Virus record (IMG/VR): IMGVR_UViG_3300005917_000540
Span: 1 to 21,034 of that record
Length of the DNA: 21,034 nucleotides
Origin: a virus
Strand: one strand, 5' to 3'
Within the stretch, counting starts at the first letter, position 1. Each line of letters begins with the position of its first letter. The translations under genes and the position numbers were made by a program. The notes under the pieces were generated by a model, which made no database searches, had not been told where the DNA came from, and saw nothing but the letters and a program-made list of their open reading frames with translations. Shown here piece by piece: positions 4,284-21,034 of the stretch.

Positions 4284-4793
4284 ATGGATTATTTACGCAT
4301 CTATGTAAAAGAAGCAGACGTGGACAGGCTTAATAAGAAAATTAAATTGGCTTGTCCCCTTATTATAAAAGAAGCAATGTCAGATAACTCTAAAAGAAAT
4401 TGGGGGACAGCAGGAGGAGTAGCTCTTGGAGCAGGAGCAGTCGGCGGAGGGTTACATTTAAAAAAACTTAAAAAACTAAAAAACATAAAGAGATTTGAAG
4501 CATTGAAAAAGCCCACAGTCAGCGCAAAGGGTTCACATTTCGCTCCAAGGCTTAGACAAACCCCTCTCATTAGACCAAAACCTTCCGTCAAGTTTCGTGA
4601 AGCAGGGAGCGTTAAGGTTAAGATGCATTCCTCTGGTCTTCCCATAAGCTGGAAGGATAAACCCGGGAAGGTCATCAAGAATGTTGTCAAGAAGACCAAG
4701 AAGGGATTGTTCAATAAAGCGCTTACGGGGCTATGGGTAGGCGACTCTGTGTTAGATACACTGAAATACAGTCCGAAAGGATTACCGTTTTAA
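4284..4793 (+). CDS. Tag-bearing basic protein with Gly-rich hydrophobic segment; predicted capsid-internal (169 aa)
   Basis: GGGAGGAG precedes ATG 4284. Residues 22-31 (LACPLIIKEA) are a variant of the decapeptide tag, with a predicted cut after Glu30; a similar YVKEA lies at 7-11. A Gly/Ala-rich hydrophobic segment follows (GTAGGVALGAGAVGGG, residues ~41-56), resembling a glycine-zipper membrane helix. After that comes a very basic tail, rich in Lys/Pro and with repeated KKLKKLKN- and VKKTKKG-type elements. Basic composition suits DNA or capsid-interior contact. If cut at the tag the mature chain would be about 139 residues. No enzymatic domain is seen. The cargo role is inferred from the tag and the neighbouring tag genes. 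Confidence 0.7.
   Translation: MDYLRIYVKEADVDRLNKKIKLACPLIIKEAMSDNSKRNWGTAGGVALGAGAVGGGLHLKKLKKLKNIKRFEALKKPTVSAKGSHFAPRLRQTPLIRPKPSVKFREAGSVKVKMHSSGLPISWKDKPGKVIKNVVKKTKKGLFNKALTGLWVGDSVLDTLKYSPKGLPF
4347..4376 (+). other. Decapeptide tag copy, divergent (LACPLIIKEA)
   Basis: Residues 22-31 of the 169-residue protein. It keeps Cys, Pro, Ile-Ile-Lys-Glu-Ala but has Leu-Ala instead of Met-Lys, and is preceded by 21 residues. The TTG codon could act as a start but has no close ribosome-binding site, so I read it as an internal processing site. Confidence 0.6.
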
Positions 4794-4811
4794 AATAAAA
4801 AGGAGAAAAAT

Positions 4812-4997
4812 ATGACAAAAATGAGATTAGGCAAGAATGCTTATGCTGAAATAGTTGAATATCAAGGAGGATATATTGTTGATGTATATAGCGTCAATGA
4901 TGGACGCAAAAGTAAAGCATCTAATTACGTTTACAGAAATAGTTTAAATCGAGCAAAAAGAGTTTCCCGACAGTGTTTTAAAGAATTATTTAAATAA
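4812..4997 (+). CDS. Small basic hypothetical protein (61 aa)
   Basis: AAAAAGGAG precedes ATG 4812. The product (MTKMRLGKNAYAEIVEYQGG...) has a beta-like N-terminal half ending in YIVDVYSV and a basic helical C-terminal half. It lacks the decapeptide tag, unlike both neighbours. No family recognised. Confidence 0.6.
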   Translation: MTKMRLGKNAYAEIVEYQGGYIVDVYSVNDGRKSKASNYVYRNSLNRAKRVSRQCFKELFK

Positions 4998-5006
4998 AGA
5001 GCAATC

Positions 5007-6347
5007 ATGAAATGTCCAGGAATGATTAAAGAAGCGTTCCCTAAGATGATATTACCAATAGTTGCCGGCGTCGGAGTATTAGGATATATTGGCGCAAGGA
5101 AATTAACCGAGCCAGACAGAGAAAAATTAAAGGAAGAAGTTAAAAAAGAGCTCAGCAATATTCCATTAATTAACCCGAAACATTCAACGGTAAAAGTAAA
5201 GCCCGGGATATTTAATCCCACAACTAAGAAGGTTGAAATTGACCTAAGGGTTAAACCGAGCGAATCCGTATTAAGTAAATCCAAGTCGATGTTTGGACAA
5301 GGCACGGCCGATTTTCATATTCCTGGAAGATTATTAAATAAAAAAATTGAGATTGATTCAATTTATTTAAAAGACAAATACAAACGGAAGGGAATTGGTA
5401 AGAGTTTTTTAGATTTGATAGACAATATAGCGAGAAAGAGAAATATTCCAAATGTATCGGTAATTGCTGATGATGAAGGCAGGTATTTTTGGTCGAGAGT
5501 AAAAGGAATGGAGGCAACTAAACAAGACATGGGGAATTTAAAGCAAAATTATAAGATATGGTGCCAAAAGAATAATAAAAAATCGGCTGAAAAAATAACT
5601 TCTATTAAAGATTTTCCTAAAGAGTTTTTATTGAGTGATGATGCTACTGACGGTGCTATTTGGGGTTTCGTCAGTATGAATAAAAAAATCGAAAAGACTG
5701 CCCAATTAAAATGCCCAGGAATGATTAAGGAAGCGATGAATAGCAGGGATCCGGTAAGTCTTAAGGATAGTTTTATAGCCGGCATAGATCCAACTGGATC
5801 AAAAACTTTTCGCTTATCACAAAAAGCAACGAGACACAAAAAACATAGAGCCGTGGGATTAGCTGGCGGATTGATCGGAGGAACAGTTTTGATTCCTTCT
5901 ACAGTAAGTGGAATTATTGGAGGAATTAAAGGTTTCGCAAAAGGACGAGGAGCCGTAGGGAGAATGATAGGCGGATTGAAAGGTTTTGGAAAAGGAGCAA
6001 TACTTCCCTACTCCACGTTACATCATGGAATAAAGGGAACAAGAGCTCTCGGAAAAGCAAGAAAAACCGGATTATTGTCAAGAAAAGGATCGTCTCACAT
6101 TGAAAAAGCATTAGGATTGGAAGCGGGCGGAAAACTGATTAAAAGTAAGTCATTCAGAAACATGTTACCTCAATTGCGCGGCACAAAAGGAATGACAGAA
6201 GCCCATAGATTAGTTAAGGATAAAACCATTAACGCCGCATCGGCATTAGGAGCATCGGCATTGCTGGGAGGGTCTTCTTCTATCTTGCAATATAATCTTG
6301 GCAAAAGAGTAGGGGATGAAAGAAGAAGAGGTTGGGCAAAATCATGA
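5007..6347 (+). CDS. Two-tag composite protein: tag, membrane helix, GNAT-like acetyltransferase, second tag, Gly-rich membrane segments (446 aa)
   Basis: Residues 1-10 are MKCPGMIKEA. A hydrophobic segment follows (~14-30, ILPIVAGVGVLGYIGA), then a charged linker. A domain at ~110-170 looks like a GNAT N-acetyltransferase: a strand IDSIYL, then YKRKGIGKSFLD (125-136) matching the acetyl-CoA-binding motif A (R-x-G-x-G), then VSVIADDEGRYFWSRVKGME. Residues 234-243 repeat the tag as LKCPGMIKEA. The second half has Gly-rich hydrophobic segments (~283-310 and ~314-333) and a third near 408-425. Cuts after both tags would release an ~233-residue GNAT protein and a ~204-residue basic membrane-active protein. 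The ribosome-binding site is weak (AAAGAG). GNAT substrates cannot be predicted. The processing is inferred. Confidence 0.75.
   Translation: MKCPGMIKEAFPKMILPIVAGVGVLGYIGARKLTEPDREKLKEEVKKELSNIPLINPKHSTVKVKPGIFNPTTKKVEIDLRVKPSESVLSKSKSMFGQGTADFHIPGRLLNKKIEIDSIYLKDKYKRKGIGKSFLDLIDNIARKRNIPNVSVIADDEGRYFWSRVKGMEATKQDMGNLKQNYKIWCQKNNKKSAEKITSIKDFPKEFLLSDDATDGAIWGFVSMNKKIEKTAQLKCPGMIKEAMNSRDPVSLKDSFIAGIDPTGSKTFRLSQKATRHKKHRAVGLAGGLIGGTVLIPSTVSGIIGGIKGFAKGRGAVGRMIGGLKGFGKGAILPYSTLHHGIKGTRALGKARKTGLLSRKGSSHIEKALGLEAGGKLIKSKSFRNMLPQLRGTKGMTEAHRLVKDKTINAASALGASALLGGSSSILQYNLGKRVGDERRRGWAKS
5706..5735 (+). other. Internal tag copy that cannot initiate (LKCPGMIKEA)
   Basis: Residues 234-243 of the 446-residue protein. 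Nine of ten residues equal the N-terminal tag of the same protein, but the first codon is TTA, which is not a start. The copy therefore functions, if at all, as a peptide inside a longer chain. Codons differ from the N-terminal copy (TGC for TGT, CCC for CCA, AAG for AAA). Confidence 0.85.
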
Positions 6348-6373
6348 AATGTCCAGGAATAATTAAAAGTTGA
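6344..6373 (+). pseudogene. Cargo-less tag mini-ORF (MKCPGIIKS)
   Basis: An ATG in an ATGA overlap with the end of the 446-residue gene opens a nine-codon frame, MKCPGIIKS, then TGA. The first eight residues are the tag consensus; the Glu-Ala ending is lost. It looks like the stump of a former tag-bearing gene or an empty cassette site. About 30 bases later the next gene's AAAAAGGAG begins. Confidence 0.65.
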
Positions 6374-6403: not shown

Positions 6404-8401
6404 ATGAATTTATTTAAACAACCATTAGCAGCTAAAGACGTATTTTCTTTCATTAAGAAAGAGGCATCCTTAGAGCTTTCCGGTAAAGTTGAGAACTGGC
6501 GAAAAGAAATCGATGGATATATGGATGAGCGTTATTCATTCTTATCGTCAGGATTGGGAAGTGTTAATTTCAAAAAAGTAGACGAAAACTCAAAAGACGC
6601 AGTAGGACAAATTGTCTGGTCGGAAAATAATATGTCTTTTACTATTCCTATCATTATAGAGGACGGAAAGTTAAAGGAACCCAATACTGCTATTTACAGA
6701 GATAAAGTCATTCCGTTAGATGAGGAATTCCTGTCCTGGACACAAAATTCGAATGAAGGCGTGGGAGAGGTAGTTAAAGACGATAAAGACATCACTGATA
6801 ATATGGAATATATTGCACAGGATGGATTATTCTCATATGATGAAGAAGGACAACAGAAAATATCTGCAGATCTGTCGACTATCGATCGCGTTAAAGGTTA
6901 TCTTCAGGATAAGAGAATTAAATTGACCGATAAGATAGCCACTTTCGTAAGAGAGGTGACACCTGTAACGGCCCCCGCGAAAGATGTTCTATTGAAAGTT
7001 TTATCGGAAAATGCGGATGTTCCTTATCATTATAAGGTTGCCGCATTATATAGAAACACCGTAGGTCGACTGGAGGTCAAGGAAGGGACATTCAATGCGG
7101 AAGATATGAAGAAACTTGGATATATATCTTCTGTGGGATACGGACAGACCGAAAATCCGGATAAGCCGGAGGAAGAATATAATTATATTAGAAATGATAA
7201 GAATCTGCAAAAAATACCGGTCGTAAAAAGAATAATAGATACAAGAAATTGCGATCAGTTACTTGTAGAAGGAAAAGCAGTTGAAGGAAAAGTTTTTAAT
7301 AATCTTTTCGCAATATGGGAAAGTAAGCCCGAGATAAAAAGCCTGGCAATAATTGATGGTGAAAAACCGGAAGATGTGGATAAGTGGGTATACGGAGACG
7401 TGTATGGGAGCGTTTCTCCTGAAACCACAAAGTATGAAAAAGGAATGTTTGGAGCAAGTATATCTACTGAAAAAATAGACAGGGCTGCCGAAACATATGA
7501 TAAAACAATTGTATTATTTGCAGGAGCAGATAGTATGTCTGTTCCATATCACGTCATTGGATGTGAAGATGTGAAAATCGGAGAAGAAGGTAATCGCGCC
7601 AGGATTCTTAAGGTAAAATCTTTAACAGACGATAAAATAGCTGTTCTCTGGCTTGATCATGATATCACAAAGATACTAAAGGCAGATAACAAGAAACTAA
7701 AGACCAGGGGTTACTCGTCTTTAACCTGGGCCGATTATAATGTTTATCTTATCCCCGCATCATATAAAGTCGGAATGCTTAAAGGCAGGAGAATTCCCGC
7801 AACATCCTATAAAGAAGATTATCGCAAAATGATTAAAGATATTACGGGACAATATCCAATAGAATTAGAAGTGGAACAAAAAGATGTTGACTTATACAAG
7901 GTGCAGGTAGCTGATGCCGGCGGCAAGAAAGAGTATGATGGATTGTCGAAAAAAGCCGCGACCGTATTGATGAGATATTTCACAGGAGATGGAATTAAGG
8001 ATATTCAAGACATTAAGTATAATACTTCTTATAATATTCAGAAAGTTGCCAAAGAAGAAGAGAAAACAAAACCAGTAGACTTGTCTCCTCTTAAAAGATA
8101 TCGAGGCAGCTGGATTAAGACAGCCAGTATAATGTGTAGTGTGCCTGAGGAAATTCTTAAAAAAGCTGAAGTTAAAAAAGTTGTTGACGATTTAGTTGGC
8201 ATGGAATATATGGACAATACCAATATTCAAGATATGTCCGAAGTAGAAGCAAGGATCATGAAATCTTTGGATGATGTCGGGCAATTGCTCCTGGTAGCAA
8301 GAATGGGAAAAACCGAATTATCCGAAGCAGTATTAGCTAAAAGTTTTAGTGCTCTAACCAAACTGATAGGTGAGATTAGGGGCAAGAATGAGAAGGGGTA
8401 A
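6404..8401 (+). CDS. Large hypothetical protein, probably structural (665 aa)
   Basis: AAAAAGGAG precedes ATG 6404. The 665-residue product has no signal peptide, membrane segment or recognised catalytic motif. It is acidic overall, with alternating strand-like and charged helical stretches. The N terminus reads MNLFKQPLAAKDVFSFIKKEASLELS; the FIKKEA element at 15-22 is distantly like the tag but lacks Cys-Pro and has an extra Lys. The C-terminal ~100 residues are helical. Position between tag genes and upstream of the terminase suggests a virion or head-assembly role. I do not recognise the family. Confidence 0.8.
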   Translation: MNLFKQPLAAKDVFSFIKKEASLELSGKVENWRKEIDGYMDERYSFLSSGLGSVNFKKVDENSKDAVGQIVWSENNMSFTIPIIIEDGKLKEPNTAIYRDKVIPLDEEFLSWTQNSNEGVGEVVKDDKDITDNMEYIAQDGLFSYDEEGQQKISADLSTIDRVKGYLQDKRIKLTDKIATFVREVTPVTAPAKDVLLKVLSENADVPYHYKVAALYRNTVGRLEVKEGTFNAEDMKKLGYISSVGYGQTENPDKPEEEYNYIRNDKNLQKIPVVKRIIDTRNCDQLLVEGKAVEGKVFNNLFAIWESKPEIKSLAIIDGEKPEDVDKWVYGDVYGSVSPETTKYEKGMFGASISTEKIDRAAETYDKTIVLFAGADSMSVPYHVIGCEDVKIGEEGNRARILKVKSLTDDKIAVLWLDHDITKILKADNKKLKTRGYSSLTWADYNVYLIPASYKVGMLKGRRIPATSYKEDYRKMIKDITGQYPIELEVEQKDVDLYKVQVADAGGKKEYDGLSKKAATVLMRYFTGDGIKDIQDIKYNTSYNIQKVAKEEEKTKPVDLSPLKRYRGSWIKTASIMCSVPEEILKKAEVKKVVDDLVGMEYMDNTNIQDMSEVEARIMKSLDDVGQLLLVARMGKTELSEAVLAKSFSALTKLIGEIRGKNEKG

Positions 8402-8404
8402 AAT

Positions 8405-9421
8405 ATGTCGTCAAAACAGACGCTAAGAGCAGTGCCGCACGAAAACTATATCAAAGTCTTAATATTGAGCGGAATACCGGTAAAGCCAACGGCTATGCAA
8501 AACAGCATAGACGAAACCCTGGTAGAAGACAACTACAATAGTTTACCGGAACATTATTACGAATTAATAGAAGCTGAATGCAGGACTATTCCCGGCGGAA
8601 GCAAGATGATTGATCATAATCGTATTGTCCAGGAATATAATTCCAAGCTTATCAGGCCTGCGACCGCTAAGAAATTGTTAATACTCGATGCGGTTGCTGA
8701 AAAATTTAGAAGGCCAGACGTGTTCTATGACCTGGTTAATTATCAAAATTTTAAAAGAAGCACATTTAAGTGTACGGGAGTATATAAAATACTATATGTC
8801 CTCAGGACCGAAACAGCAAGGCAATATATAGAGTGCTGCGTTTTAACAAAAATGGCTTTATCCGAATTAATTAGAGGCTGGAATGACATAGCGGCAGGGC
8901 AGAAATCTATGAGATTGGTGCCTAAAAACATAAGCATCTATGTATATTATTTTTGGAATTGCAGGGAAACAACCTTACGTAAACAAGGCACAACCAGATT
9001 AGATATCATGTCTTATCTCGATGCTGATAAGCGGAACGAATTCTACAGGTATCATAGAGAGTTATTATTCAGGGAACCATCGTTCACGAAACATAAATTC
9101 GGAACATTTTCAGAAGATGACAGAAGAATAGATATTAATGTTATGCGGGGAAAGACCAGAGATCGTATAATAGAAATTTTGAATAGCACAAAATACAGGG
9201 CAATATCTGCGGATATTTTAGATCTTTTCAAATATACCGACGCACAGATAAAAGATAGTGCTGATAAAGGTAAAAGTGTCAATGAATATAAGGCTGTTAT
9301 TGAGGACTTTAAGCACAGAATAGTGGTATGTATAGAAGAGGATATTTCTTTGGATGAATTAAAAAATCAGAAAATTGATCCAAGTCTTATACATCAAGAC
9401 GAGCCAGCGGGAAGAAAATAA
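8405..9421 (+). CDS. Hypothetical protein upstream of terminase (338 aa)
   Basis: Starts 3 bases after the previous stop, with the AAGGGG of the upstream gene's end as ribosome-binding site. The product is largely helical and charged. It has scattered Cys residues and aromatic patches (ISIYVYYFWNC near 176-186), but no zinc arrangement I can defend. The C-terminal third is acidic. Position two to four genes upstream of the large terminase would suit a small terminase subunit or packaging factor, but no DNA-binding motif is clear and the length is above the usual 150-200. Function is not assigned. Confidence 0.75.
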   Translation: MSSKQTLRAVPHENYIKVLILSGIPVKPTAMQNSIDETLVEDNYNSLPEHYYELIEAECRTIPGGSKMIDHNRIVQEYNSKLIRPATAKKLLILDAVAEKFRRPDVFYDLVNYQNFKRSTFKCTGVYKILYVLRTETARQYIECCVLTKMALSELIRGWNDIAAGQKSMRLVPKNISIYVYYFWNCRETTLRKQGTTRLDIMSYLDADKRNEFYRYHRELLFREPSFTKHKFGTFSEDDRRIDINVMRGKTRDRIIEILNSTKYRAISADILDLFKYTDAQIKDSADKGKSVNEYKAVIEDFKHRIVVCIEEDISLDELKNQKIDPSLIHQDEPAGRK

Positions 9422-9546
9422 AAGGAGAAGTTATGAGAACACCAGAAATAATTAAAGAAGCGTGTGTAAAAAAAATGGAAGGATTGCCAGAAAAAGTGGC
9501 AGAAAGGAGAAAGTTTATGAGAACACCAGAAATTATTAAGGAAGCG
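9421..9546 (+). repeat. Tandem duplication of RBS plus tag
   Basis: Bases 9421-9462 (AAAGGAG, short spacer, ATG and the ten tag codons) reappear at 9503-9546 with a 2-base longer spacer and two synonymous changes (ATA/ATT, AAA/AAG). The repeats are in frame. This shows the tag being duplicated together with its ribosome-binding site as one unit. Confidence 0.8.
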
Positions 9547-9726
9547 TTATTTGCTAAAATAGCAGAACGTGGGCAAGGAATTGGTCAAGGCGGAGCAAGA
9601 CAACTTGACCTTGGAGCAGATAAATGTAAATGCCCCAAGTGTGGACATGTCGCAAATCACGATAGAGGTACACCGTGTAGCGAGATAAGTTGTCCGGAAT
9701 GCGGAACTAAGATGGGTGGAGTATAA
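9433..9726 (+). CDS. Double-tagged zinc-ribbon cargo protein (97 aa)
   Basis: AAAGGAG at 9421-9427 precedes ATG 9433. The protein starts MRTPEIIKEA and carries the same decapeptide again at residues 29-38. The second copy has its own AAAGGAG (9503-9509), so translation may also start at 9517. After a Gly-rich linker (RGQGIGQGGARQ) comes a zinc ribbon, CKCPKCGHV...PCSEISCPECG, with C65, C67, C70, C82, C87 and C90. This resembles a small ribbon found attached to varied bacterial and phage proteins. In the tag, Lys-Cys is replaced by Arg-Thr, which may avoid extra Cys beside the zinc site. A cut at the second tag would leave a ~60-residue ribbon. Confidence 0.75.
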   Translation: MRTPEIIKEACVKKMEGLPEKVAERRKFMRTPEIIKEALFAKIAERGQGIGQGGARQLDLGADKCKCPKCGHVANHDRGTPCSEISCPECGTKMGGV

Positions 9727-9728
9727 AT

Positions 9729-9881
9729 ATGAAATGTCCAGAAATTATTAAAGAAGCCGAGATGTCTAATCTTGATAAGAAAAATTTAATATTAGCCGTA
9801 AGTAATCCGAATAGTTATACGTTGCGTTCTGGAAAAAGGGTAAAATTAGCCCAACGTTTACTTCCCGTGATCCCAATATGA
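9729..9881 (+). CDS. Small tag-bearing protein (50 aa)
   Basis: GGTGGAG precedes ATG 9729. The product starts MKCPEIIKEA and continues with about 40 residues, EMSNLDKKNL then a basic LRSGKRVKLAQRLL segment. The mature chain after a cut at Glu9 would be only ~41 residues, too small for most enzymes. It overlaps the next gene by ATGA at 9878-9881. Role inferred only from the tag. Confidence 0.7.
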   Translation: MKCPEIIKEAEMSNLDKKNLILAVSNPNSYTLRSGKRVKLAQRLLPVIPI

Positions 9882-10189
9882 TAAAGATGTATAATTTTAA
9901 ATTTCCGGGATCTAATAGCTTTTTAAAAACAGCCGGCATGAAATGTCCAGAAATAATTAAGGAAGCGGTTAGATATCCTATTCCGTACCTGGATTTTACT
10001 AATCCTAAAACACAAAAACTATATAGAGATGCTAGTTTGGCCTGGGATAAAACTCCTCATGGGCTACATTATAAAAAGGTGCTTTCTAAGAATAAAGGTA
10101 TGCTTGGTCCGGGCGGAGCGAGAGCCATGGCATTCCAAAAGAGCAAAGAATATGCTAAAATTAAAGATAAAGTAACATCCTATAAGTAG
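9878..10189 (+). CDS. Tag-bearing basic protein with 20-residue N-terminal extension (103 aa)
   Basis: ATG 9878 is in an ATGA overlap. Twenty residues (MIKMYNFKFPGSNSFLKTAG) precede the tag MKCPEIIKEA at 21-30. The tag's own ATG (9938) has no good ribosome-binding site, so the longer form is preferred and the tag would be internal. The remainder is basic and helical, with a Gly-rich GMLGPGGARAMAF segment near the C terminus resembling the linker of the zinc-ribbon gene just upstream. No known domain. The terminase gene follows after 11 bases. Confidence 0.7.
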   Translation: MIKMYNFKFPGSNSFLKTAGMKCPEIIKEAVRYPIPYLDFTNPKTQKLYRDASLAWDKTPHGLHYKKVLSKNKGMLGPGGARAMAFQKSKEYAKIKDKVTSYK

Positions 10190-10200
10190 ATAAGGAATCA

Positions 10201-11976
10201 ATGAAAGATTTAGATCCCAAAAAGATCCTTGTAGTTTCAGAGCATAAAAAAGTCCCAAGTGATTATCTTAAAAAGGGGCATAAGCGTATAGCTAAAATGT
10301 ACGCAGATGGAAGAGAATTGGCCGTAGCAAGAGCCAATCGCTTTAAAGGTGAGTATAAGGGCTATATTTATAGAACCCACTTTCTAAACGCATTATTAAA
10401 CCTTAAGAACGAACCGCTATCTTATTGGTTTCTGGAATTCTGGAGAGAGATATTAAACTCAGCACGATTAAGTGTAGCTGTTCCTCCTGAAAGAAGAAAA
10501 ATGGTATGGAAAAATTCCCGACAGACAGGAAAATCTGTAAATGCAGGAGCCCTGGCTATTGGATTATCGGTTGAGAATAAAAACTTCACAACCGTTATAA
10601 CTCAGCCGACAGACAAGCAGATAAGCAGATTTTCCGTAGACATATTAAAGCGAATGAACAGAGATTCTGTGATAACCGAAACATGGTATTATGACAATAA
10701 GCTGAATGAAAGACAGGTTAAGAACAAATCATATACAACCGGATCGCGTATAGTTCTCGCTAATATATTTTCCTCCGTATTGTCTGCCAGGGGTATTTCC
10801 GCAGATTTTTATCATGCAGACGAATACCAGGATACTCCGGAGCATCATGCTACTATTATTGAAGAAGCGTTAAGCAGATCTCCTTTCAGATATATGGTTA
10901 AGAGCGGAACTCCCTTACAGCCGGAAAATCCTTTACAGAAAGAATTTGACAGATCCACCGGACACGAATGGATGATAAAGTGTGGAAAATGTAATACGTG
11001 GAACGGTCCTCTCGGGATTAAAAATATAGGTAAGTACGGCACTATATGTTACAAGTGCGGAGCTGAAATATATACCAGGTTTGGAATATGGGCGGCAGCG
11101 CAGCCGTCTGCTGTTGTAAAAGGTTATCATTGCAACGAGCTAATGGTTCCACCTGGCGCAGAATACGCTGCAACCTGGCCGGAAATAATATTCAAGCTTG
11201 AAAATAAAACGACTTTAGAGTTTATGAACGAAGTTCTCGGCATGTCTTATTCCGATAACAAACATCCCATATCCAGGCAAGATGTAATATCTGTATGTGA
11301 TCCGGGACGATGTTACGTAAGGGAAACAACGGAAATAACTCCGAGAATGAAACGGTATGCCTATGCGGGTTTAGACTGGGCGACGGAAACGCGGCCAGGC
11401 AGAGAAAAAGATAAGATAAAATCTTTCACAACTCTCGTAATAGGTTCATTTATACCGGACATTAATAAAATTGAAATAAATTACGTAAAAAGATATTATG
11501 ATCTTGAATTTGAAGATTCGAATAATCCTATTGCCGTTACAGACGATATTATAAAATGGGTTAATGCATTCAGTGTTAGAGTATTAGGTATGGACTATGG
11601 AGCTGGACATAAGGAAAATATGCGATTATCAAACATACTGGGATATGATAGGACTATGGAATTACAATACCTTGGAGGAACTGACGATAAGGTCGTTTAT
11701 TCCAGCGCGGCGCTTAAATGGATACTAAATAGATCAAGGGTTATGGAAGATTTTATTGAGGCTTTTGTGGTCAATAAGACAATCAGGATGGCTAAGTATG
11801 ATGGGGAAACATCAGAGTATTCTTCCGATCTGACGACGGTATATAAATATCATGATCCGGCTAAAAGATCCTTGCGGTATGGCAAGTCCGGACCGGACGA
11901 CCTGTTCCATTCTCTGTTATTTATGAGATTGGCATTTATGTTTGATCACGACAAGTTGTCATATGTAACAAAATAA
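10201..11976 (+). CDS. terL: Terminase large subunit (591 aa)
   Basis: The DNA-packaging motor: an N-terminal ATPase and a C-terminal nuclease that cuts concatemers. Walker A is SRQTGKS (106-112). Walker B is ADFYHADEYQD (201-211; Asp207, Glu208). A zinc knuckle CGKCN...CYKCG (C261, C264, C283, C286) lies between the ATPase and nuclease domains. The RNase H-like nuclease shows Asp392 in AGLDWA, Asp465 in LGMDYGAG and Asp566/567 in GPDDLFH. Length is normal for the family. The ribosome-binding site is AAGGA. Zinc-ribbon insertions occur in some terminases but not in most. It acts at the portal of the prohead, and the portal gene lies 3 kb downstream. Confidence 0.93.
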   Translation: MKDLDPKKILVVSEHKKVPSDYLKKGHKRIAKMYADGRELAVARANRFKGEYKGYIYRTHFLNALLNLKNEPLSYWFLEFWREILNSARLSVAVPPERRKMVWKNSRQTGKSVNAGALAIGLSVENKNFTTVITQPTDKQISRFSVDILKRMNRDSVITETWYYDNKLNERQVKNKSYTTGSRIVLANIFSSVLSARGISADFYHADEYQDTPEHHATIIEEALSRSPFRYMVKSGTPLQPENPLQKEFDRSTGHEWMIKCGKCNTWNGPLGIKNIGKYGTICYKCGAEIYTRFGIWAAAQPSAVVKGYHCNELMVPPGAEYAATWPEIIFKLENKTTLEFMNEVLGMSYSDNKHPISRQDVISVCDPGRCYVRETTEITPRMKRYAYAGLDWATETRPGREKDKIKSFTTLVIGSFIPDINKIEINYVKRYYDLEFEDSNNPIAVTDDIIKWVNAFSVRVLGMDYGAGHKENMRLSNILGYDRTMELQYLGGTDDKVVYSSAALKWILNRSRVMEDFIEAFVVNKTIRMAKYDGETSEYSSDLTTVYKYHDPAKRSLRYGKSGPDDLFHSLLFMRLAFMFDHDKLSYVTK

Positions 11977-12036: not shown

Positions 12037-12135
12037 ATGAGATGGTGGGTATGGATTTTGGCAGTACTTGCTGCAATAGTAATAATTGCAGCTGTAGTAA
12101 TTTATTTTATTTTACGTTCGATGAATATTGGATAG
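12037..12135 (+). CDS. Single-helix membrane microprotein (32 aa)
   Basis: AAAAGGAG precedes ATG 12037 by about 6 bases. The product is MRWWVWILAV followed by an uninterrupted hydrophobic stretch to residue ~26, then LRSMNIG. It is one transmembrane helix with an aromatic, positive N terminus. Its stop falls inside the start of the next gene. Such microproteins can be holins, antiholins or virion membrane peptides; the sequence does not decide among them. Confidence 0.65.
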   Translation: MRWWVWILAVLAAIVIIAAVVIYFILRSMNIG

Positions 12136-13042
12136 AAAATTAATGGAAAAAGAATCTTTCGTAGCGCCGCTTAGCATAAAAAGCAATAAAGAGCGGCAAT
12201 CTTTTAAGGGAATCTCTAAAGAATATATCAATGAGATAATGGGCGGAACATTAGGGTTGGCTGCGTCATTGCCCATAGGATATGCTTTCGGTAGAGGATT
12301 ACAGAAAGTTCCAGCTATTGGAAAAAACCCTCGTCTCGCAAAGTTTATGCAGGCGCATCTTAAAGTGGTTCCAACTAAAGTTATGAGAACGGCGGCGAAA
12401 AAGATGATTTCTTCTACGTCTAAAAATTCTCTCGCTTTAAAAAGAATAGATATTGCAACATCGAAATATATCCGGGCAGGAGCAAAGAAATGGATCGGGA
12501 AGCCTAAAAACTTATCTATGTTGGCCGGAATAATGATAGTAGGAACAGTCGGCTCATACTTGGGAGGAAAGTCTTCAATAAGAAAAATGGAGAAGAAAGA
12601 CAATCTTCCTCCTGTTGATCCGGAGTTAATTGCGGCAAGAAGAGCCGCCGGTATGTTTATTCCCGATATTGTTAAGCCGTTAGAAATGGTTGCATATTAC
12701 GGGATAACTAAAAAATATTTAAAAGATAAGGATAAAAAAATGAATAAAACAGGAAAAGTTATGAAATGTCCAGAAATGATTAAGGAAGCGATGTCCCCAT
12801 ATGCCAAAGGGGCGTTAATTGGCGGCGGACTATTAGGAGGAACAACGTTTATGTCTAATTTATTAATGAAACAAAAAGATGGAAAGAAAATGAAGTTTTC
12901 TAAAGTTTTAGGGAGAACTGCGCTGGGAACGGCAGCGGGAGCAGGATTCGGTGCCTTAGGTGTCAAAGGATTGAGAAGTGCGCGATCATATGGCATAGGG
13001 GATGCCGCCACTGAAATAGGAGCAAGCTTAGGAGCGTTATAA
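12128..13042 (+). CDS. Composite tag-bearing glycine-rich membrane protein (304 aa)
   Basis: The frame opens at TTG 12128, overlapping the microprotein stop; ATG 12143 (residue 6) after GGATAG may be the true start. The first part (to ~210) is basic, with Gly-rich hydrophobic segments at ~39-54 and ~131-146. Residues 176-185 (MFIPDIVKPL) resemble a degraded tag. Residues 212-221 are MKCPEMIKEA, preceded by AGGAAAA at 12751-12757, so a separate protein may start at 12761. The last part has two more glycine-zipper segments (ALIGGGLLGG near 229-238; ALGTAAGAGFGALG near 265-278). Either a cut at the tag or internal initiation would give a ~83-93-residue second product. No enzyme domain is seen. 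Confidence 0.7.
   Translation: MDRKLMEKESFVAPLSIKSNKERQSFKGISKEYINEIMGGTLGLAASLPIGYAFGRGLQKVPAIGKNPRLAKFMQAHLKVVPTKVMRTAAKKMISSTSKNSLALKRIDIATSKYIRAGAKKWIGKPKNLSMLAGIMIVGTVGSYLGGKSSIRKMEKKDNLPPVDPELIAARRAAGMFIPDIVKPLEMVAYYGITKKYLKDKDKKMNKTGKVMKCPEMIKEAMSPYAKGALIGGGLLGGTTFMSNLLMKQKDGKKMKFSKVLGRTALGTAAGAGFGALGVKGLRSARSYGIGDAATEIGASLGAL
12713..12739 (+). repeat. 27-bp direct repeat, left copy
   Basis: Encodes the KYLKDKDKK stretch ending at residue 204 of the 304-residue protein. It matches 13268-13294 at 26 of 27 bases and lies 21 bases before the internal tag ATG. Confidence 0.8.
12761..13042 (+). CDS. Possible internally initiated tag-bearing protein (93 aa)
   Basis: In frame within the 304-residue gene. 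ATG 12761 follows AGGAAAA by a few bases and opens MKCPEMIKEAMSPYAKG. The 93 residues hold two Gly-rich hydrophobic segments and a basic linker (MKQKDGKKMKFSK). All stand-alone tags begin with such an ATG, so independent initiation is plausible; the sequence cannot distinguish it from proteolytic release. Its stop overlaps the next tag gene (TAATG). Confidence 0.5.
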   Translation: MKCPEMIKEAMSPYAKGALIGGGLLGGTTFMSNLLMKQKDGKKMKFSKVLGRTALGTAAGAGFGALGVKGLRSARSYGIGDAATEIGASLGAL

Positions 13043-13269
13043 TGAAATGTCCAATAATTATCAAGGAAGCAATGGGTGATAACCCTTATAATATGTCGGA
13101 TGCGAGAATGGAGAAGTTAATAACTAAACAAACCAAGATATTAAGAAGCCATGATGTAAAGCCGGGTGGCGCATTGAAATGGTATGCTAAGGGCAAGTGG
13201 GGATCTGTGCCTAAAATGACAATAACGGATAGAGGCCACCTGGTAAGCAATGTTAATAAATTGTTATAA
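13042..13269 (+). CDS. Small tag-bearing basic protein (75 aa)
   Basis: Begins at a TAATG overlap with AGGAG about 8 bases upstream. It starts MKCPIIIKEAMGDNPYN, where Ile replaces the usual Glu/Gly at position 5. After the tag come a helical segment (DARMEKLITKQTKIL) and a beta-like basic segment (GGALKWYAKGKWGSVPKMTI). No known family. It lies inside the block flanked by 27-bp direct repeats. Confidence 0.7.
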   Translation: MKCPIIIKEAMGDNPYNMSDARMEKLITKQTKILRSHDVKPGGALKWYAKGKWGSVPKMTITDRGHLVSNVNKLL

Positions 13270-13349: not shown

Positions 13350-14738
13350 ATGTTCGGAATAAAATCTTTTGACGAAGAACGAATTGAAAAATTAGCAACA
13401 CAAGTATTGTCATATGCACAGGAAACACAAATAAGCCTAACTGACGGGCTTAGAAAAATAGCAACAGATTATGGTCTGTCTTCTGCTGAAATAGAAAATG
13501 TTTGCGGCAGGGTAAATCATATACATTTCAGCAATAAATTTGCAGAGGATAAATTAGTATCATTTAAAAGAGCGGTTTTTGAAGACGTCATAGGTTCTAC
13601 TACTAAAACTGCCGGCTACAGGATTTATTCCGGAAAGCTGATGAAAAACGTCTATGAATATCTTGACAAGGAAGCTGCTGTTGCAGATGTTGCATCAGAA
13701 GGAGAATTTGCTGAACCGAGAAAGTTCAAGCAATCCGATACGCAGAGAAAATCATCGCTAATAGACGCTGCCAGCAGGAATGTCGATACCTTAAACGAGA
13801 TGGATAGCAATAGAAATGCTGAGCTTGATAAGATGCGGAATACAATCATCCAGCTTGCTCAATCCGGCGAATCTCTTAATAATATATATGAAGTCATATA
13901 TAAGACGTGGGGAAAAGAAAATGTTGGTGAACTCGATAGATATTTTGCCGAACTCATTGGAGAATTGAAAGCGGATGGATATCTTTCAAGTAAGGATGAG
14001 CTCAAAATACCCGGCATAGAAGATATTCCGGATAGGGAAATAGCTGAGACACCCTTACAAAAAAGTGCGGAAGCAATATTGAAGTTAAGTAGTGAAATTA
14101 TTAAAAGAGAGATAGTTCATTATAATCTCCAGGATATGCTCAAAGAAGCAGGAGAGCATGTTTCTGCCAGGATGGTGGATGAGATCGCAGGAGATGAGTT
14201 TGTGGTAGCTGATATAATAGCTGCTTCCATTGAAAAGGACGCTAACTTTCTTAAAACTATAGGAAAAGCCCTAAAGGCATCTGGTGTTGATAAGGCGATT
14301 CTGGCAGGGACTGCTCTTGCTGTTCCATCGGCTATATTTGGAGCCAGTATTGCTCGAGCAGATGATGTTGCCCTGAAAATAAAGAAAAAGAAAATACAGA
14401 AAAGTTTACCAGATAGATTTCCTGAGCTGAAAGAGATTCCGGCTCAGAAATATATTGATATTTACGAGACTTTAACGGCTTTAACTCCGGTGCTCTTGAA
14501 AGCTCCGTATGCGCTTGCTGAAACAATCAAGGGAGTATATAATTACGATACCATTGACGTTGGAAAGATAACATCATTGATAAGCGCAAAAGGCAAACAG
14601 CCATCCATAGGAGCGGAAGCACTTATGAAAAATTTGTCTCAAGGAATTGGTTCGCAGATGCCGAAGCCATTGGATGCGGCGGCAAAATTTGCATTATCAG
14701 AAAAAATGAAAGCAAAAGAAAATAAGGGGAAGGTATGA
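13350..14738 (+). CDS. Hypothetical helical protein, probably virion-associated (462 aa)
   Basis: AAAGGAG at 13338-13344 serves ATG 13350. The product is largely helical and acidic, with one hydrophobic segment (~316-335, AILAGTALAVPSAIFGASIA) and a basic stretch directly after (KIKKKKIQK). MLKEAGE (263-269) matches an L-x-E/A cleavage site and could divide the chain in two. The C-terminal region is Ala/Lys-rich. It lies between tag genes and the portal. No family is recognised; a head-interior or core component is a reasonable guess from position. Confidence 0.78.
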   Translation: MFGIKSFDEERIEKLATQVLSYAQETQISLTDGLRKIATDYGLSSAEIENVCGRVNHIHFSNKFAEDKLVSFKRAVFEDVIGSTTKTAGYRIYSGKLMKNVYEYLDKEAAVADVASEGEFAEPRKFKQSDTQRKSSLIDAASRNVDTLNEMDSNRNAELDKMRNTIIQLAQSGESLNNIYEVIYKTWGKENVGELDRYFAELIGELKADGYLSSKDELKIPGIEDIPDREIAETPLQKSAEAILKLSSEIIKREIVHYNLQDMLKEAGEHVSARMVDEIAGDEFVVADIIAASIEKDANFLKTIGKALKASGVDKAILAGTALAVPSAIFGASIARADDVALKIKKKKIQKSLPDRFPELKEIPAQKYIDIYETLTALTPVLLKAPYALAETIKGVYNYDTIDVGKITSLISAKGKQPSIGAEALMKNLSQGIGSQMPKPLDAAAKFALSEKMKAKENKGKV

Positions 14739-14938
14739 AATGTCCAGAGATGATTAAAGAAGCGTTATTTGGATTAGGGAAAAGCACCCCTAAAGGATGG
14801 ATAAAAACCAAGCATAAGGGCACTCCCTATATATTTAGCAACACTGCGGAAGCCCATAAAATCATGCAAAGACGAGATATTAACAGTGATGAAAGAGTTG
14901 GGTTAATGTTGAAAAATAAGCTTATGAAAAAAGTTTAA
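14735..14938 (+). CDS. Small tag-bearing basic protein (67 aa)
   Basis: Begins in an ATGA overlap after GGGGAAGG. It starts MKCPEMIKEALFGLGKSTP and continues as a basic, possibly nucleic-acid-binding chain: GWIKTKHKGTPYIFSNTAEAHKIMQ, with a Lys-rich C terminus. Mature length after a cut at Glu9 would be 58. It is immediately upstream of the portal gene. Confidence 0.72.
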   Translation: MKCPEMIKEALFGLGKSTPKGWIKTKHKGTPYIFSNTAEAHKIMQRRDINSDERVGLMLKNKLMKKV

Positions 14939-14975: not shown

Positions 14976-17759
14976 ATGGCCATAAGCGATATTAATGACG
15001 CAAAATTAGTGCTTCTCACAGGGGATAAAAATATAGTCGACATGATATTTGCGACTAATTTGAATAAGTTATATATCCCTGACAGTGTTTATGTATATTA
15101 TTTATTTGCCGAATATTTCTTTACCTATATGAGTATCGGCGCGGCTATAACAAAGTTAGCCCGATTCCCGATATCCAACCTGGATTCCGTGTGTGAAAGT
15201 GCTGTTCTTAAGAAAGCAGCAAAAAAGATCCAGCGTAAAATTAAGCTGAAAGAAAAATTAGTTAAGATAGGGATAAATTATTTTTTATACGGATCGTCTT
15301 ATGTTATTCCCACATTTCCTATAAGAAAGACGATTATCTGTCGTTCTTGTGGAAAAACTTATCAGCTTATGAAATTGGAAAAGAACGGAATACAGAGATA
15401 TACATTCGTAAATGGAGACTATAAGTTTAAGTGTACAAATAAAAAATGTAAATGGCATAAGCAAGAAAGAGCTTTCAGGGTTGAGGACAGGCCGATAAAA
15501 GATATCTCTAAGATGAGTTTAGCGTTATGGTCTCCTCTTAATATGGAGATTAATGAAAACACCGTGACAGGTCAACTGCAATATTTATATAAGCTCGATA
15601 AAACAATGGTGAATAAAATATCAAGAGGCGATCACTTTACTTTATGTACTACCCCGGAAATGTATATTAAAGCGGCTCTCGGCGGTTATTCTATTAAGGT
15701 TAATTCTGATAAAATGTTCGTCCTACATGCCCCGACATTAAAAATAAAGGGTATTCCTATTCCTCCGATGGTCATGGCTATGAATGATCTAATCTTGAGA
15801 ACAAAATATTTGACTGCCAATAGAACTATTTCGGAAGATCTTCTGGTGCCGTTGAGAATGTTATTCCCTATTAATAAAGGAGAGGTGGGGCAAAGACCAT
15901 TAACCCAACAACTCAGGACTGTAGATTGGGTCACTAAAACAAGAAGTGAATTGGATAAATGGGAAAAAGATAAAAGCCATATCATAACTCTCCCGATAGA
16001 GATTGGATCAAAAGACGCCTGGGGACAGGGAAAATTATTGGCAATGCATCAAGAACTAAAAGCCAATATGAGCGATATATTGTCTACGATGGATATGCCG
16101 ATAGAATTCTTTTATGGTGGAGCAGTTTGGTCTAGACACAATGTGTCGGCTATTATAATGGAAAACACATTCAAACAATACGCGACGCTTCTACAGGATA
16201 TTCTCGATTATATAGCTGATGAAATAAATAAGAAGAAAATTACTTCAGACATCCTGGAGATGAAAATTAATACTCCTCGCCTGGTCGATGCTATGGCGGA
16301 AGGTGTTTATCTTGAAAGAGGAATGGACAAAGGGGATATTAGCCCTCAAACATATTATGATAGATTCAATATAAGCTATCCAAGAGAAATGCAGATCATT
16401 GACAAGAATAGGGAGATGATTGAAGGGGCTAGGCAGGATAGGGCAAAAGGAACCGCTCTTGCTGAGGCTAAAGCTCAGGAATCCTTACTGAATGTTCAGG
16501 AGAAAATAAGAAGTTTCGAAAGAGTAGAAAATCTGAAAGATGGTATAGCTCAGGGCAGAGTTGAAGAAGATAGTCTTAATAGAAATATTAAAGCACAAAA
16601 AGAATTAGCTTTGCTTAATGCGGAAATACAAAAAGAAATAATACGTGCTAATGCCTCGATAATGTCGAAGCAAATGAAAGAACAGTCTTCTGATTCTATT
16701 AAAAACATGGAAATCCAGCTTAAGCTTCAATCTGATGAAGAGTATAAAAACGCCCAAAAAATGCAGAAACTTGAAGTTAAAGGAATGAAAGATCAAGCAA
16801 GGGCTGAAGATCAGATAATGGCAGAAAGAGAAGGAAATGCTGCCAAAAAGCAAATTACCGACATATTCGAATCACTTCCGCCTGAGATTAAGGAAGAGAT
16901 AACTAAGCTTCCTCCTGAAGAACAGGAGCCGGCCATAATGCAATATGGCGAACAGCAGAAAAAGCAAGAAACATTAGCGTCTCTGCCGGAAGAAGAAAGA
17001 GAATCGATCCAGGATCTTCCGGAAAAAGAACAGGACCAGAGATTAGGGGAATTGACTCAGGGGCAGGAAGAAGAAGGGCAACCGAAACAAGAAACACAAG
17101 AAGACCCTGGTCTTGGAAAAGAGAAGATCAAACAGAAGCTTGAAGCCGAGAAGGAAGAAGAGGGAATTGATATTCAGGCTACAACATTAAATAAATTACA
17201 AGGACAGGAAAGGGAAGTTTTTAAAGCTAAATTAATACAGGAAGATTCGAAAAGATTTGCTCAAATTAAAGAAGTGGCAGATATGATGTTCGTGCAGGAC
17301 GTTGTTAATAATATTATGGAGGCAGATCCAAAAGATGCCGAAGCCATTTATGAGGAAGTTAAGAAAAATAGACCCGAATTAGCCATTGATGTTTATAAAG
17401 AATTAGAAAGACAACTGTTTTATCAACATCAATCTAATGGTTGGGCATTAAGATTATTACAGACGGAAGGAACTCCGGAACAGGAAGAACTTGTTGGACA
17501 GCTTCGCAAAGATACCCCGAAGCAGTTTAGGCAAATGGTTTTCCAAAACTATCAACAGCTATCTAAGGTTCCTGCTGAAAAAAGAGAAACTTATTTAGAC
17601 AAAGCTGCTTATGCGAATGACAGGCGTAACGATATGGCAAAAGAACTTGCAGCAAGCATAAGTGCTTTTCCGGAAGACGAAAGAAAAAAATTGCTCGGGG
17701 CTTTGAAGCATGAAAATCCTGAGCTATATAAGAATACGACATATTTCATGGAGGAATAA
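14976..17759 (+). CDS. Portal protein with zinc knuckle and acidic Gln/Glu-rich C-terminal extension (927 aa)
   Basis: The ring at the capsid vertex through which DNA is packaged and ejected. Portal-like features: INYFLYGSSYV (100-110), a long helix with MAMNDLILRTKYLTANRTISEDLL (266-290), the segment HIITLPIEIGS (335-345), and the MPIEFFYGGAVWSRHNVSA region (374-392). An unusual zinc knuckle (C122, C125, C153, C158) interrupts the N-terminal half. From ~480 the chain is coiled-coil-like. At ~620-730 it has Glu/Gln/Pro-rich LPPEEQ-type repeats. At 927 residues it is long for a portal; the extension may act as built-in scaffold or as binding surface. The ribosome-binding site is weak (AAAGGA). 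Confidence 0.85.
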   Translation: MAISDINDAKLVLLTGDKNIVDMIFATNLNKLYIPDSVYVYYLFAEYFFTYMSIGAAITKLARFPISNLDSVCESAVLKKAAKKIQRKIKLKEKLVKIGINYFLYGSSYVIPTFPIRKTIICRSCGKTYQLMKLEKNGIQRYTFVNGDYKFKCTNKKCKWHKQERAFRVEDRPIKDISKMSLALWSPLNMEINENTVTGQLQYLYKLDKTMVNKISRGDHFTLCTTPEMYIKAALGGYSIKVNSDKMFVLHAPTLKIKGIPIPPMVMAMNDLILRTKYLTANRTISEDLLVPLRMLFPINKGEVGQRPLTQQLRTVDWVTKTRSELDKWEKDKSHIITLPIEIGSKDAWGQGKLLAMHQELKANMSDILSTMDMPIEFFYGGAVWSRHNVSAIIMENTFKQYATLLQDILDYIADEINKKKITSDILEMKINTPRLVDAMAEGVYLERGMDKGDISPQTYYDRFNISYPREMQIIDKNREMIEGARQDRAKGTALAEAKAQESLLNVQEKIRSFERVENLKDGIAQGRVEEDSLNRNIKAQKELALLNAEIQKEIIRANASIMSKQMKEQSSDSIKNMEIQLKLQSDEEYKNAQKMQKLEVKGMKDQARAEDQIMAEREGNAAKKQITDIFESLPPEIKEEITKLPPEEQEPAIMQYGEQQKKQETLASLPEEERESIQDLPEKEQDQRLGELTQGQEEEGQPKQETQEDPGLGKEKIKQKLEAEKEEEGIDIQATTLNKLQGQEREVFKAKLIQEDSKRFAQIKEVADMMFVQDVVNNIMEADPKDAEAIYEEVKKNRPELAIDVYKELERQLFYQHQSNGWALRLLQTEGTPEQEELVGQLRKDTPKQFRQMVFQNYQQLSKVPAEKRETYLDKAAYANDRRNDMAKELAASISAFPEDERKKLLGALKHENPELYKNTTYFMEE

Positions 17760-20005: not shown

Positions 20006-21034
20006 ATGAAAAAGATATTAGGAATTTTATTAGTATTCTTGTTAGTAACGGGAATGCTGCAAGCAATAAGCGTGGAGAGAATCGATAAGCTTATTACGGC
20101 TCTTATTACATCAATATCAACCGATGGGGACATAACTCTAGATCCTCTTGGAACCGGAAAGGTTATTATCACAGGAGATATTGATATTAGTAATGATATT
20201 CTTCTGGCAACCGCAGGGGTGATAGATTGGAATTCGGCGGATAAACTTACTCATTCTGAACATAAATTAACCTGGAGCGGATTTACGGAAGTAGACTTTG
20301 GGGCAATTGTCACCGTAGATTTCGATGGAGCACCCACTTTTACAAGCGCAAATGGCCTGTTTCTTTTCACAAGCACAGCGGGGCTACAAGCAGATATTAT
20401 AGGCTCAGGCACAGCCCCAGTTGCAGGACAGGCTCTTGCGATGGCAACCGGCGGAGTATTAGGATGGAACTCAGCTGACTATATGACCCACTCAGAGCAC
20501 ATAATGACTTTGAGCGGATTTACTAAGTGGGATTTCGGAACTGGTTCAGATGTTTACATTGGAGATGATAAAAAACTATACTTTGGTGTTTCAGATTTCA
20601 GTATGGAATATGATGAGGACGGAAATGATAACATGTCATTTGATGGAACAGACATTAATATGAATGGCTATTCGCTTCTAAATGCCCAACTTGATTTATC
20701 GTTATCACAAGGTCTTGCTTGGGACCAGGCAAATGATACTTATGAAAGATTAGGCAGTATAGCTGGTATAGCCACATCGCAAAGTGCTGGTAATGCTTAT
20801 TTACCTATTCAATCCGATATGAGACGATGTCTTTTGGAAGATGCTGGGACTATAAATTATTATATTGATGAAGATGATCCGATAATGAAAGACGGAACTA
20901 CTGTAGCTGTTTCTGGAAATGCAACGAGTCAACCTGAATTTTTCACAACTCAGATAGATAGAGATTTTTCCGGTGGTGATACGCACTGGGAAAATGTTGA
21001 TCTTGGAACAACTTTTAATGAAGAAGATGGAGGA
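20006..21034 (+). CDS. Fibre-like protein with Sec-type signal peptide, 3'-partial
   Basis: AGAGG precedes ATG 20006; the frame stays open to the window end (343 codons). Residues 1-20 (MKKILGILLVFLLVTGMLQA) form a signal peptide, and the next 30 parallel those of the preceding gene (IDKLITALITSISTDGDI, PLGTGKV). Two internal repeats follow at ~71-98 and ~150-177, each with G-x-x-x-W-N-S-A-D, THSEH and SGFT. Near 266-300 come LPIQSDMRRCLLEDAGTIN and KDGTTVAVSG, a pattern seen in phage host-recognition proteins. It is a second, longer member of the secreted fibre-like pair. Confidence 0.8.
   Translation, partial: MKKILGILLVFLLVTGMLQAISVERIDKLITALITSISTDGDITLDPLGTGKVIITGDIDISNDILLATAGVIDWNSADKLTHSEHKLTWSGFTEVDFGAIVTVDFDGAPTFTSANGLFLFTSTAGLQADIIGSGTAPVAGQALAMATGGVLGWNSADYMTHSEHIMTLSGFTKWDFGTGSDVYIGDDKKLYFGVSDFSMEYDEDGNDNMSFDGTDINMNGYSLLNAQLDLSLSQGLAWDQANDTYERLGSIAGIATSQSAGNAYLPIQSDMRRCLLEDAGTINYYIDEDDPIMKDGTTVAVSGNATSQPEFFTTQIDRDFSGGDTHWENVDLGTTFNEEDGG

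Follow-up and report, generated by a model that had tools for sequence, protein, structure and literature searches.

A leader repeated within a fused phage protein is a predicted capsid-targeting and processing signal of a nearly uncultured clade of tailed phages

The DNA analysed here (the window, 21,034 nucleotides) comprises the complete 21-kb IMG/VR record and represents part of the genome of an uncultured phage, with a late region that carries genes for a terminase large subunit, a portal protein and a core-type protein (Table 1). It contains ten copies of a short peptide tag in eight ORFs with unrelated bodies, which is the pattern of a shared leader of T4 type. The small ORFs start with MKCPxxIKEA or MRTPEIIKEA, and AAGGAG or AGGAG lies 5-9 nt upstream of most stand-alone tagged genes. 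A chance repeat is ruled out by the counts: where 0.01 matches to a DNA pattern for the tag core would be expected, the window has 8, and a search of four related genomes for a tag-like peptide pattern gave 39 matches, compared with 4.3 for shuffled proteins. The tag strongly conserves a Cys (or Thr) at residue 3 and the Pro that follows it, neither of which belongs to the predicted cut core described below. The start of the contig (3-494) also holds a piece of a TnpB/OrfB-like protein, further pieces of which occur in the relative G001 (L006:3140-3298 and L017:1979-3151).

Table 1. Features of the window; arrows mark predicted cut positions, h a hydrophobic residue and SD a Shine-Dalgarno sequence.
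Position	Strand	Feature	Basis or remark
4347-4376	+	Internal tag LACPLIIKEA in ORF 4284-4793	TTG, no SD; TTA at this place in the G001 ortholog
5007-6347	+	446-aa ORF with tag, GNAT-like half, linker that holds the internal tag, and glycine-rich helical half	Single open frame
5007-5036	+	N-terminal tag MKCPGMIKEA, predicted site MIKE↓A	Sequence
5313-5522	+	GNAT-like stretch, residues 103-174	Pfam PF00583/PF13673, below gathering cut-off
5688-5702	+	IEKT↓A, second predicted cut site, residues 228-232, upstream of internal tag	Match to clade logo L-E-K-T-A
5706-5735	+	Internal tag LKCPGMIKEA, residues 234-243, first codon TTA; predicted site MIKE↓A, residues 239-243	
5736-6344	+	Second module; first ~50 aa related to a stand-alone leader-bearing L027 protein (4700-4933)	
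6344-6373	+	Degenerate, truncated third tag MKCPGIIKS, then stop	Missed in the original prediction
9433-9462	+	Tag MRTPEIIKEA, start of ORF 9433-9726	
9517-9546	+	Second tag MRTPEIIKEA in ORF 9433-9726	ATG with AAGGAG; unit stand-alone in G001
9729-9758	+	Tag MKCPEIIKEA, start of 50-aa ORF	
9938-9967	+	Tag MKCPEIIKEA after FLKTAG, in ORF 9878-10189	
10201-11976	+	Terminase large subunit	phrog_675, E 3.2e-49
12761-12790	+	Internal tag MKCPEMIKEA in ORF 12128-13042	Tag and module stand-alone in G002
13042-13071	+	Tag MKCPIIIKEA, start of ORF 13042-13269	
13350-14738	+	462-aa core-type protein with several h-x-K-x-A sites	7 against 3.8 expected
14735-14764	+	Tag MKCPEMIKEA, start of ORF 14735-14938	Unit internal in G001 and G003
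14976-17759	+	Portal protein	Similar to annotated portal of Salmonella phage Arash, E 1e-28

The two halves of the 446-aa protein are joined by the linker MNKKIEKTAQLKCPGMIKEAMNSRD, which holds a pair of h-x-K-x-A sites that flank the tag at a distance of 11 residues from each other. The GNAT match is sub-threshold (Pfam E 0.0018), PHROG and Pfam scans gave nothing beyond it, and the helical character of the second half is read from a poor single-sequence structure model (pLDDT 41) that is usable for secondary structure only. Searches of phage records and IMG/VR found no homologue of the whole protein, and its second half stands alone in L027 (40% over 50 aa). The original prediction correctly described the internal copy as lying in frame, as matching nine of the ten residues of the N-terminal copy and as beginning with TTA, a codon that cannot start translation. 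Its statement that the shared residues use different codons holds for two of the nine: the copies at 5007 and 5706 are identical at 26 of 30 nucleotides, and the codons that differ are ATG/TTA, TGT/TGC and AAA/AAG only. Outside its first codon, the 5706 copy is equally near (25/27 nt) to the tags at 5007 and 12761. The TTA codon and the absence of a Shine-Dalgarno sequence rule out a translation signal at this internal copy, as had been argued, but the argument at this one copy leaves room for other roles of the N-terminal copies, for which capsid targeting, as in T4, is likely. The IEKTA site in the linker had been overlooked. The truncated tag at 6344 overlaps the stop of the ORF at a place where G001 has a full tagged gene, and could be either the remnant of a gene or a nine-residue peptide.

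G001 (contig L006) is syntenic with the window, with a terminase 85% identical, and more distant relatives are G002 (terminase 51% identical), G003 and L027. We rejected G004 (L030) as a relative, its match to the DNA pattern being a chance one and no tagged gene family being seen there, and a profile search of the genome contigs with the portal alignment found no relative. The tags of G002 and G003 keep C-P, a hydrophobic residue, K and A/S, and the residue before Ala is E, M, V, R, T, I, N or K; relatives' tags end in IIKVA, IVKMA, ILKRA and IIKTS, and the leaders of L027 read FLQKIA or ILEKIA. Because the residue before Ala varies in this way, the common core is h-x-K-x-A/S rather than x-E. 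A T4-style (L/I)xE rule is thereby rejected; although IKE-A of the window fits the gp21 motif, (L/I)-x-E before A/S/G, formally, its Glu is not kept in relatives. The same variation makes Glu242, which had been put forward as the residue to mutate, the wrong first choice, since what is conserved at the internal site is Lys241 and Ala243, with Lys before and Ala or Ser after the variable position in relatives.

Relatives carry further tag copies, some of them internal and lacking a usable start, including TTA in G001 (L006:5031), GCT in G002 (L021:10418) and TTG with no Shine-Dalgarno sequence in G002 (L021:9154). Members of four module families occur as separate genes in one phage and, in another, are joined to a neighbour at a tag or K-x-A. 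The 14735 unit lies inside a longer protein in G001 (E 9e-35) and also in G003, where it follows ISIKIA (E 4e-7), the C-terminal unit of the 12128 ORF is stand-alone in G002 (E 2e-4), and so is the second unit of the 9433 ORF in G001 (E 3e-37). Leaders of their own are likewise reused on several genes by other phages of the group, parallel to T4: several genes of L090 begin with MNKYLEKVA, MENKYLEKIA or MSTNKYLEKAA, L113 has similar leaders, and MIKEAQFQKLVE...LLEKLAG occurs twice in L064.

Other features of these genomes were observed alongside the tags. In L027, a frameshift, which may be genuine or an error of sequencing, divides the portal gene into ORFs 7721-8536 and 8554-10551. G001 carries a diversity-generating retroelement (L006:18342-21239 and 21246-21497; L018:21-926) in which a 965-aa fibre-like protein has a variable end, an imperfect repeat of this end lies downstream with 21 of 25 differences at template A positions, and a reverse transcriptase is encoded (RVT_1, E 1e-16); window 20006-21034 is a cut-off ortholog of this fibre gene. 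In G002, a gene for a phage RNA polymerase beta-like subunit (L019:797-4036; RNA_pol_Rpb2_6, E 7e-52) adjoins a tagged gene. In the virion proteome of Arash, obtained with trypsin, an RNA polymerase subunit accounts for more spectra than any other virion protein (PMC10585845); the coverages given there, 100% from two unique peptides among them, are uninformative about cut sites. InPase-domain fusions occur in G002 (L021:18597-19784 / L022:98-1945), G003 (L036:1610-2911) and L027 (4937-6337); they also carry a peptidase-like domain or a DnaJ-like end, with K-x-A/S/G near the edges, and the G002 protein P0007 combines InPase with a Peptidase_M91 match near the cut-off. These fused proteins are probably head-associated.

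Relatives encode a candidate for the processing enzyme within their head module. In G002, the gene for a 662-aa protein, P0001, separates the tagged genes from that for the capsid protein (PHROG 2522 major head match, 1.6e-5). P0001 has relatives in Arash and Vibrio phages, and the family is encoded in 167 contigs of IMG/VR. Among 36 aligned members of the family, 26 match the head maturation protease PHROG 18299 (best E 5.5e-13), and H100 and S151 are invariant among the aligned proteases. In VIA-align comparisons, the AlphaFold2 model (pLDDT 76) best matches the protease of varicella-zoster virus, a herpesvirus assemblin (Z 8.7), and matches T4 gp21 with Z 8.5 over 129 residues at 2.9 Å, both above the background of MCE domains near Z 6. 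Foldseek alone found no significant match of the model in the PDB. The VIA-align matches agree with PHROG 18299 and with BFVD matches that include proteins annotated as prohead protease, and together they identify P0001 and its relatives as a family of gp21/assemblin fold with predicted prohead protease activity. The protease and capsid genes of the clade are known from G002, Arash and metagenomic relatives. Both are absent from the window, a 21-kb fragment, and from the contigs of G001, G003 and L027, and we infer that the window phage's own protease lies off the contig. Near residue 28, the proteases have a K-x-A of which K and A are each at least 90% conserved, in a stretch that is disordered in the model.

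The proposed site is statistically linked to this protease family. We took all 400 X,Z pairs in the pattern hydrophobic-x-X-x-Z, counted each in head-module proteins and compared the counts with those of shuffled proteins. At 60 of the 79 protease loci the K,A pair had the top rank among the 400, mostly at z values of 4-11, although the loci include near-duplicates and are not all independent. h-x-K-x-A ranked first in the window (29 against 12.8), first or second in the window, G001, G002, G003 and L027, and first in Arash and Vibrio D69. T4, lambda, SPO1 and phiKZ show it at background levels, as do tail and early genes of G001-G003. With its preferred neighbours, the core reads [LMF]-E-K-[TIQLEV]-A-[SA]. 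The density of the motif is 8-15 per thousand positions in the first 40 residues and 4-6 further in, with about 1 per thousand for the Arg control. Core- and scaffold-type proteins hold 7-12 copies, including 12 against 2.9 expected in the L027 homologue of the window's 462-aa protein, and there is no clear difference in motif density between residues beside and inside InPase domains (7/381 and 7/568). In all 25 representative capsid proteins, K-x-A precedes the first conserved helix. Many capsid proteins have no hydrophobic residue two before the Lys (GKEKIA), so that K-x-A alone is common to all sites. As read from the sequences, this distribution is the one that would be expected of the site of a maturation protease.

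We consider it likely that the tag serves as a leader for capsid targeting and processing, and that the 446-aa protein represents two fused head proteins with predicted cut sites between them. The leader, x-[KR]-[CT]-P-x-x-I-K-x↓A, would bring internal head proteins into the prohead, where the phage prohead protease would then remove it at hydrophobic-x-K-x-A, most likely by cutting the bond just before Ala. Fusion of two tagged genes would have produced the 446-aa protein, whose GNAT-like and helical halves would enter the head as a single chain. Three cuts are predicted: in the N-terminal MIKE↓A, in IEKT↓A and in the internal MIKE↓A. Two mature proteins, one GNAT-like and the other helical and glycine-rich, would result, and the linker AQLKCPGMIKE would be discarded; one gene would thus probably yield two packaged proteins. 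The earlier proposal of a cut site that divides a polyprotein survives in this form. A processing site between two head-protein modules is favoured because relatives encode the protease family, the motif recurs across head modules and units bearing the tag stand alone in one phage and lie inside a longer protein in another, but "polyprotein" is a fair term only for the fusion of two tagged genes.

The internal copy might instead be the remnant of a fusion of two tagged genes, with the 446-aa chain packaged uncut. In these phages, genes often fuse or split at tags, and the present fusion may be a recent one, perhaps formed by recombination at near-identical 27-nt tag DNA; the 25/27 identity of the internal copy to two other tags and the decayed tag at 6344 are in keeping with such a history. 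We nevertheless regard an inert remnant as unlikely. The two changes that removed the start codon left K-x-A intact, the same linker holds a second consensus-like site, IEKTA, and other internal non-start copies have been kept, as at window 4347, where the copy and its G001 ortholog agree in protein and the DNA shares only 15 of 27 nucleotides with the 5706 copy. Rather more doubtful is the idea that the motif binds the prohead core or shell and remains uncut at internal sites, where it would give fused proteins stronger targeting. In T4 leaders, the residues for targeting can be separated from those for processing (PMC9026906), the predicted cut core of the tag described here does not include C-P, and a motif that binds the prohead core could yield identical statistics, but K-x-A lies near the N-termini of the capsid protein and of the protease, where maturation and autoprocessing sites are expected. 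Finally, a second product from a nested start, as in T4 gene 21, with the tag as its leader, is very improbable: T4 has such internal starts, an in-frame ATG (5676, MNKKIEKTAQLKCPGMIKEA) lies ten codons upstream of the internal tag, and the internal tags at 9517 and 12761 have ATG and an SD-like sequence, but only TTGGGG, and no AAGGAG-like site, precedes 5676, while other starts of this phage have strong ones.

If the tag is a targeting and processing leader, the proteins that a whole clade packs into its heads, probably for ejection into the host, could be recognised, together with their cut sites, from the motif alone. It would also define a new prohead-protease specificity (Lys at P2, a variable P1 and Ala at P1') beside the known Glu-type ones, and recombination at a portable leader would offer a route by which phages gain packaged proteins, including fused units that separate themselves. 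On balance, we favour a broader proposal: that head maturation in a large, nearly uncultured clade of tailed phages, from which four isolates were found in the collection, depends on an assemblin-fold protease specific for h-x-K-x↓A, where T4 and phiKZ have Glu sites, and that leaders particular to each lineage (MKCPxIIKEA here, MNKYLEKIA elsewhere) end in this site and serve both to package many small proteins and to separate fused ones in the same polypeptide.

Several known systems bear parallels with this arrangement. In phage P1, the N-terminal localisation signal of DarB is sufficient to package a foreign protein (PMC9024508), but, unlike the tag described here, the Dar proteins have no common consensus and no reported internal copies. 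Polyvalent proteins (Iyer et al. 2017, PMC5512222) are likewise multi-domain and probably head-packaged, and InPase domains occur in G002, G003 and L027. Their proposed processing is by an embedded metallopeptidase (PMC5512222), whereas here it would involve tag sites and a separate prohead protease; moreover, two or more recognised domains characterise polyvalent proteins, and the 446-aa protein, with its sub-threshold GNAT match alone, has no confirmed polyvalent domain. The phiKZ gp175 and SPN3US gp245 systems resemble the present one in that many head proteins are processed, long propeptides contain several motif copies and the protease processes itself (PMC10052503, PMC9026906). They cut after Glu (AXE in SPN3US), in contrast to the predicted Lys, variable residue and Ala here. 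In T4, the capsid targeting sequences (CTS) are leaders of 10-19 residues on variable internal proteins, target the core and are cut by gp21 (PMC9026906). As in the T4 internal proteins IPI-III, a short N-terminal leader is carried by unrelated proteins and ends in a predicted protease site, and a protease of gp21 fold is present in the head module of the window's relatives. The T4 leader is unrelated to CPxxIK and ends in (L/I)-x-E, whereas here h-x-K-x-A is the conserved element and copies of the leader also lie internally, between fused modules.
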